Assembly: GCA_002085025.1 (NCBI GenBank)
Contig: MZGK01000021.1
Location: 1-43,262, forward strand
Origin: Candidatus Omnitrophica bacterium 4484_213
Lineage (GTDB): Bacteria > Omnitrophota > 4484-213
DNA: 43,262 nucleotides
Reading direction: 5' to 3'
Below the pieces are notes generated by a model. That model had not been told where the DNA came from. It saw only the letters and a list, made by a program, of their open reading frames with translations, and made no database searches. Positions 20,333 to 21,944 of this stretch are shown in pieces (the first letter of the stretch is position 1; every line of letters begins with the position of its first letter). Both the position numbers and the translations under genes were made by a program.

Positions 20333-20409
20333 TGGTGGGCCCACCAGGACTCGAACCTGGGACAAACGGATTATGAGTCCGCTGCTCTAACCAACTGAGC
20401 TATGGGCCC
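20333..20409 (-). tRNA. tRNA with CAU anticodon (Ile2 or elongator Met)
   Basis: GGGCCCATAGCTCAGTTGGTTAGAGCAGCGGACTCATAATCCGTTTGTCCCAGGTTCGAGTCCTGGTGGGCCCACCA; encoded CCA. Confidence 0.93.
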
Positions 20410-21944
20410 ATCCTCATCTCTAAGAAATTTCTTATTTTATGACTCCGTACCGGATGCCTTAACTTCCTTAATGCTTTTGCTTCTATCTGTCTCACTCTCT
20501 CCCGGGTTATTCCAAACATACCTCCCACTTCTTCCAAGGTGTGCGGACAACCATCATCAATGCCAAAGCGAAGCTTTAAAATATTTTTCTCCCTTTCTTC
20601 TAAACTCTCCAATATTTGACCTATCTGTTCCTTCAACATCATATGGCTTGTAGCCCGAGAAGGAGAAATAGCCTTCTTATCCTCAATAAAGTCTCCAAAA
20701 TGAGCATCTTCTTTATCTCCGATGGGAGTCTGTAAAGAAATTGGCTCTTGGGCAACCTTTAAGATTGCTCTTATTTTCTCTACTGGTTCGCCCATCTGCT
20801 CAGCGATTTCCTCGGAAGAGGGTTCGCGTCCATTCTCCTGAACCAAGTGACGCGCCACCTTATAGATTTTGTTTATGTTCTCAATCATATGCACAGGTAT
20901 GCGGATTGTCCTCCCCTGGTCAGCAATAGAACGAGTAATCGATTGCCTAATCCACCAGGTAGCATAGGTGCTAAATTTGTATCCTCTCTTGTATTCAAAT
21001 TTATCTACTGCCTTCATCAAGCCAATATTCCCTTCCTGAATAAGGTCAAGAAAAGATAAACCGTGATTAGTATATTTCTTGGCAATGCTGATTACTAACC
21101 TCAAATTAGCCGCTATCATCTGTTTTTTGTAAAAGAATACTTCCTTTTCGCAAGAAGAAACCAGTTCCATTTTTTGCCTTAATGCAGAGAAAGGCTCGCC
21201 GATAATTTCTTTTATCTCCTTTAGTCGTTTGTTTAACTTAATTATTTCTTCCCCCTTCTTTCTCTTTCTTTTACGCAGCTTTTTAAGAGCAGAGTTTATT
21301 TCTTCTGCCTCTTTTAAATATCCTTTAATCTGAATAATGATTTGCTTAATCACAGAGATACTAAAATTAAACTTCTCAAAAATAGGGAGAAGCTCGGCTT
21401 CTTCGGATGCGGTTTTTAAACGTCTGACCAAGGAACGAATCTTTCTGTAGAGCTTTCTATCATCCAATCCCACATCTTCTTTTATTACTCCCTCAATATT
21501 TACTTTGCGCTCTAAAATCTTATCCGCAAGTTCAATCACATAGCGGCGCGCAAATTTGCATCTAAATACTGCTTCTCTTAACTTAAACTCTTCAGCAGCA
21601 ATCTTCCGCGTCAATTCCAGCTCCTCTTCTCTCGTGAGTAAAGCAACTTTGCCCATTTCTTTCAAATATATCTTTACGGGGTCATCGGTAGAAACAGATT
21701 TAATAAAGAATGGCTGAATTTCCTCAGGGATATCTTCGTTTAATTTATCTTTATTTTTCTTCTTTTCCTCGTCCTTTTTTAAAGAAATGGTTTTTATTCC
21801 TTCTTTTTCTAACCGAGAGAAAACCTTTTCTATCTCTTGAGAATTGACTATTTTAGGAGGAAGAAGAGAGTTAATCTCAGGATAAGTTAGGTAACCTTTG
21901 TTTTTGCCTAAATTAATTAGTTTCTTTAGATAATGTTGCTTCAT
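20400..21944 (-). CDS. rpoD: RNA polymerase primary sigma factor (sigma-70/RpoD)
   Basis: [32 protein letters not shown] and [30 protein letters not shown]. Confidence 0.98.

Follow-up and report, generated by a model that had tools for sequence, protein, structure and literature searches.

What becomes of a message whose stop codon lies within the tRNA that follows it? The closest described bacterial system is selC, the gene for tRNA-Sec, which is nested in or overlaps selB and for which tRNA processing has been proposed to yield nonstop mRNA (Mukai 2021, PMC8124441). Protein and tRNA were proposed there to be alternative products (PMC8124441), and the idea of a nonstop message is itself already published for this gene pair. 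As at the rpoD/tRNA junction described here, the upstream gene runs at its 3' end into a tRNA on the same strand, but translation of selB either passes through all of the tRNA or stops at tRNA positions 46-48, whereas in rpoD the overlap is 10 nt and the stop is U8-A9-G10. Because SelB and tRNA-Sec act in one pathway, control in that system has a rationale, unlike RpoD, which has no known tie to tRNA-Ile2. Among reports on bacterial gene-tRNA stop overlaps, the selB/selC paper is the only true precedent that we found, and the open literature that was searched yielded no description of several bacterial genes that take tRNA U8-A9-G10 as their stop.

Nonstop messages made by cleavage are known from arfA of E. 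coli, where RNase III cuts at a hairpin upstream of the stop codon, tmRNA handles the product, and the control loop is proven (PMC3989581). An endonuclease site upstream of the stop and a role for tmRNA, both of them predicted here, are common to the two arrangements, but arfA employs RNase III and a hairpin instead of RNase P and a tRNA, and its proven loop has a logic. Mitochondria complete their stop codons by polyadenylation; to our knowledge, no stop completion of this type occurs in bacteria. Animal mitochondria (Armadillidium), as cited in PMC8124441, exhibit tRNA punctuation and tRNA/coding overlaps, and to the extent described there they resemble the rpoD/tRNA junction in that tRNAs are cut from common transcripts and coding regions touch or hold tRNAs.

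The window is the whole stretch of 43,262 nucleotides that was analysed, and it belongs to the genome (G000) of an uncultured member of the Omnitrophota, a metagenome bin of 0.93 Mb in 53 contigs. Small, streamlined genomes are described for this phylum (PMC10066038). Features are collected in Table 1. At the junction the minus strand reads ...GAG ATG AGG ATG GGC CCA TAG CTCAG.... An earlier note on this DNA had placed the rpoD UAG on U8-A9-G10 of a CAU tRNA, which is exact by sequence, open reading frame (ORF), ARAGORN and Rfam, and had described the tRNA 5' strand as the last codons of the sigma factor, which is confirmed with G1 as the third base of Met512 and positions 2-7 as Gly513-Pro514. 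The overlap thus comprises 10 nt, with tRNA G1 at 20409, and joins a tRNA to the 3' end of a real gene on the same strand, with the stop of the gene inside the tRNA. The match of RpoD to curated models stops at residue 508-510, ahead of the tRNA overlap. TAG occupies positions 8-10 in 20 of the 35 tRNAs of the window's genome, and since a stop triplet is common there, an in-frame gene that reaches a tRNA is expected to stop at that point.

Table 1. Positions in the window of the rpoD/tRNA junction and of associated genes.
Feature	Position	Strand	Basis or remark
rpoD, primary sigma factor, 514 aa	20400-21944	minus	NCBIfam NF004208 and TIGR02393, both above cut-off
rpoD UAG stop = tRNA U8-A9-G10	20400-20402	minus	sequence and tRNA call; likewise in G001, G002, G004
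tRNA acceptor 5' strand G1-A7 = third base of Met512 + Gly513 + Pro514	20403-20409	minus	
Predicted RNase P site	between 20410 (U-1) and 20409 (G1)	minus	tRNA 5' end from ARAGORN/Rfam; cleavage inferred
tRNA(CAU), Ile2 type, CCA encoded	20333-20409 (ARAGORN); 20336-20409 (Rfam)	minus	74.7 bits (Rfam)
tRNA-rnpB spacer, 120 nt	20213-20332	minus	short hairpin and dispersed repeat; ~20 nt in the sibling genome G002
rnpB, RNase P RNA class A	19858-20212	minus	Rfam RF00010, 171.1 bits
dnaG, upstream neighbour of rpoD	22048-23871	minus	PF01807, PF08275
ssrA (tmRNA), likely rescue RNA	31813-32195	minus	RF00023, 171.5 bits
smpB, tmRNA partner	32318-32812	minus	PF01668, E 1.9e-57

The tRNA that overlaps rpoD has the anticodon-loop sequence CTCATAA, the pairs C4-G69, C5-G68 and U12-A23, and A73. 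In G004, a genome of the same family judged 96% complete, one tRNA of this type occurs, among the loci read, together with distinct elongator-type and distinct initiator-type CAU tRNAs, and TilS scores above cut-off in G000, G001, G003 and G004. From the CAU anticodon, the C4-G69 and C5-G68 pairs, the separate identity from both Met tRNAs and the presence of TilS, we read the tRNA after rpoD as the AUA-decoding tRNA-Ile2, neither elongator nor initiator Met, with lysidine predicted. There are 17 AUA codons in rpoD itself.

Among the 58 genomes searched, rpoD was found in 56 (four of the window's family and 52 other Omnitrophota). Conservation in siblings, a check that the earlier note had proposed, is borne out: the rpoD stop lies at tRNA positions 8-10 in all four family genomes that possess rpoD (G000, G001, G002 and G004, from two genera), at RpoD identities to the window's protein of 99% in G001, 87% in G002 and 74% in G004. 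In the bin of a further family member, G003, rpoD was not found. The same overlap is present on an independent contig from another assembly, QMND01000078.1. This contig is filed under Candidatus Shapirobacteria and is probably misbinned; its rpoD is 100% identical to that of the window. Chance does not explain the overlap itself together with its identity in the four family genomes and on this contig.

Outside the family, the overlap is absent from all 52 other Omnitrophota with rpoD; in 23 of these, rpoD is followed by a CAU tRNA of this type at a distance of 65-1575 nt. Beyond the phylum, 11 loci from Nitrospirota and Thermodesulfobacteriota have a CAU tRNA 42-428 nt after rpoD. The succession of rpoD and a CAU tRNA, known from many bacteria as an rpoD--ileX neighbourhood, is therefore shared with Omnitrophota and Nitrospirota loci, and with E. 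coli, where ileX lies near rpoD, but the spacer of 42-1575 nt found elsewhere is missing in the window's family. Comparison shows the rpoD--tRNA-Ile2 neighbourhood to be old, with the spacer lost in the ancestor of the window's Omnitrophota family, because the overlap is absent in the 52 others, 23 of them with the same tRNA after rpoD. The earlier note had held that absence from relatives combined with a recent deletion here would speak against its reading; the overlap is indeed absent outside the family, but it is family-wide, and a recent deletion in one strain is rejected. Lengthening of RpoD by reading into the tRNA is likewise rejected, as the C-terminus keeps the usual length in the phylum, FL[ED] plus five residues (FLEMRMGP versus FLDLKLSD or FLEMGLGE elsewhere).

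Is rpoD special in ending within a tRNA? ORFs that stop inside a tRNA were sought in five genomes of the family and in two outgroups, and the genes were checked against Pfam. In G002, an upstream ORF overlaps 11 of the 34 tRNAs: six stop exactly at tRNA positions 8-10 (rpoD, thiE, fumarase, ham1, mscS and a sigma-70 gene), in two more, rpiB and an HTH gene, just the G of the UAG coincides with tRNA G1, and three ORFs stop at positions 12, 19 and 33, the last being a 350-aa ORF with a Pfam match below cut-off. Stop-sharing in the family occurs at tRNA U8-A9-R10; the stop of thiE is shared at positions 8-10 in G002, G003 and G004 (three genera) and that of ham1 in G002 and G003 (two genera). Four overlaps are present among the 42 tRNAs of G004, and in G006, an outgroup genome from another Omnitrophota family, tRNA positions 8-10 hold the stops of two genes, one for an rRNA methyltransferase (PF04452) and one for an exonuclease (PF00929). 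The only sound case in the window's own genome is rpoD. Six of the 11 distinct overlapping genes stop at 8-10, where frame and triplet would predict roughly one in five (P about 0.012, post hoc), an excess that would also follow from selection against longer extensions. Unlike in arfA, the arrangement is not specific to a regulated gene, since five other family genes share stops at tRNA positions 8-10.

By an ORF-length proxy, 15 of the 34 tRNAs in G002 and 16 of the 42 in G004 lie 0-20 nt behind a gene or are overlapped by one, so tRNA processing from messages is probably common in these genomes. Gene-tRNA spacers are wider in G000 and G001 and are often filled by dispersed repeats. In the G000/G001 branch neither thiE nor ham1 overlaps its tRNA, and inserted sequence parts the two in each case. 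The absence of these overlaps from the sister lineage indicates that escape is possible, and rpoD never escaped: its overlap is the only one that keeps its position in all family genomes holding the locus.

Another gene of the sigma-70 family has its end in or at tRNA-Arg(CCT), with its UAG at tRNA positions 8-10 in G002, with only the G of its TAG shared as tRNA G1 in G004, and with about 84 nt separating it from the tRNA in G000. An apparent overlap of hisB with tRNA-Val in G000 was rejected as a frameshift, the sibling proteins reaching their end, GVPSTKG[K/R]I, upstream of the tRNA or immediately before it; compared with the siblings, hisB of G000 has a frameshift close to its 3' end, through mutation or sequencing error. 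ORFs of G054 that end at position 8 of tRNA-Val and tRNA-Thr were without Pfam support and were left out of the counts.

The gene directly after the tRNA, in the same direction, in the window's family is rnpB. The earlier note had put it about 120 nt downstream, and the distance from the tRNA 3' end is exactly 120 nt; ssrA and smpB, which the note had also placed in the window, were both found. In G002 the spacer between tRNA and rnpB is ~20 nt, too short to hold a promoter after the tRNA. In some other Omnitrophota families rnpB is located within about 1.5 kb of rpoD, so its position here is an older neighbourhood drawn tighter, which weakens it as a sign of the specific link that the note had suggested. 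Beyond rnpB, an ORF at 18947-19702 encodes the head domain of a poly(A) polymerase or CCA-adding enzyme (PF01743), so that a tRNA and rnpB lie together with what may be an enzyme acting on tRNA ends. The tRNA-rnpB spacer contains a dispersed palindromic repeat of the GATCCTGAGGAGC type, which is also found beside other tRNAs genome-wide and is lacking at this place in G002. The predicted tmRNA tags of the family and one relative (the window's ssrA and loci L389, L390, L391 and L393) end ALAAV, ALVTV, ALAVA, ALATV or ALVG, compared with the usual LAA.

The rpoD/tRNA junction is probably best viewed as a product of genome compaction, in which mRNA and tRNA would form one transcript that RNase P splits and no dedicated control would be involved. 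The old rpoD--tRNA-Ile2 neighbourhood lost its spacer in the family ancestor, whereupon the near-invariant tRNA U8-A9-G10 became the rpoD stop. Because the near-universal tRNA stop lies two to three codons in, an in-frame gene-tRNA fusion by deletion is nearly harmless to the protein, and the anatomy is thereby explained without control. The tRNA, having no visible promoter of its own, would most likely be made from the rpoD message, and an RNase P cut at G1 would free it and leave the rpoD 5' fragment stopless; if the two are co-transcribed, a nonstop 5' product ending ...AGG AU would follow from the anatomy. Ribosomes arriving first at the UAG would make full-length RpoD and block tRNA folding while there, and after cleavage the mRNA piece would decay, the trapped ribosomes being rescued by tmRNA/SmpB, as established biochemistry would predict. 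The earlier note had proposed that RNase P makes a nonstop rpoD message for tmRNA: the anatomy, the intact cloverleaf and the presence of tmRNA, SmpB and rnpB agree with this, but such a message would arise only upon co-transcription, and the cleavage is a predicted one. Since other family genes share stops with tRNAs, the overlap looks like compaction instead of a purpose-built switch, and is probably a tolerated by-product, one of several shared stops. Against this reading count the fixation of the rpoD overlap alone in every family genome with the locus and the co-transcription, which is inferred.

Might the tRNA instead have a promoter within the rpoD 3' end? It would then come mostly from short transcripts, the rpoD mRNA would end or be cut elsewhere, and the overlap would be of little effect. 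This appears unlikely, although tRNA demand greatly exceeds that for mRNA and bacterial tRNAs usually have strong promoters. No -35/-10 match was found in 19800-20900 (0 versus 1.2 expected in shuffles, for a sigma-70 consensus that may not be that of this lineage), nor was a terminator pattern in the same interval. Third positions in the last 40-60 rpoD codons evolve like the rest, with no dip in synonymous rate: synonymous change in the last 40 codons versus the body of the gene is 0.24 versus 0.24 between G000 and G002, and 0.46 versus 0.47 between G000 and G004. The last 15 codons exhibit lower synonymous change, but over few sites that include the overlap. In addition, for each of the many G002 and G004 tRNAs 0-20 nt behind genes, a promoter would have to lie concealed within coding sequence. 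The tRNA promoter inside rpoD that the earlier note had regarded as damaging to its reading was therefore seen neither by consensus scan nor in synonymous rates. That the true rpoD stop was lost through an assembly or annotation error is a negligible prospect; all of the genomes are metagenome bins and hisB in G000 may be such an artefact, but contigs assembled separately show this junction again, while their flanks have diverged and RpoD is of normal length; error is thereby refuted in practice, and it was rejected.

The earlier note had gone further, linking tRNA processing capacity to sigma factor output. As a regulated switch, RNase P activity would set the share of stopless rpoD message, tmRNA would tag the product, and fast tRNA processing would lower sigma output. 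The anatomy allows this, tmRNA and SmpB are present, rnpB comes next on the same strand, ~20 nt past the tRNA in G002, only rpoD keeps its overlap in all family genomes with the locus, and arfA provides a proven example of control by cleavage-made nonstop mRNA (PMC3989581). We nevertheless consider such a switch quite improbable. The stops of thiE, ham1, fumarase, mscS, the second sigma factor and two genes of another family are shared in the same manner, and for the first four there is no reason for such control; no conserved element adjoins the overlap; and the folded rpoD-tRNA co-transcript keeps an intact cloverleaf, so RNase P could act at any time on what would be a constitutive substrate, with no sensor apparent. 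The regulatory claim is thus possible but not favoured. The overlap itself is real and conserved, and the anatomy reaches further than the earlier note could see. A more elaborate version, in which rpoD, tRNA-Ile2 and rnpB form one transcript and RNase P, with its own RNA encoded downstream, destroys the sigma stop codon, would tie synthesis of the sigma factor, through feedback, to the level of RNase P and the supply of AUA-decoding tRNA; the constancy of this overlap while others shift would then be a trace of selection. We regard this as highly speculative and very improbable.

The lineage uses the near-invariant tRNA U8-A9-G10 as ready-made stops for several genes, including that of its main sigma factor. 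These genes are natural cases for asking how translation competes with tRNA maturation on a shared transcript; they also bear on the need for ribosome rescue that is created by a normal cell's own tRNA processing.
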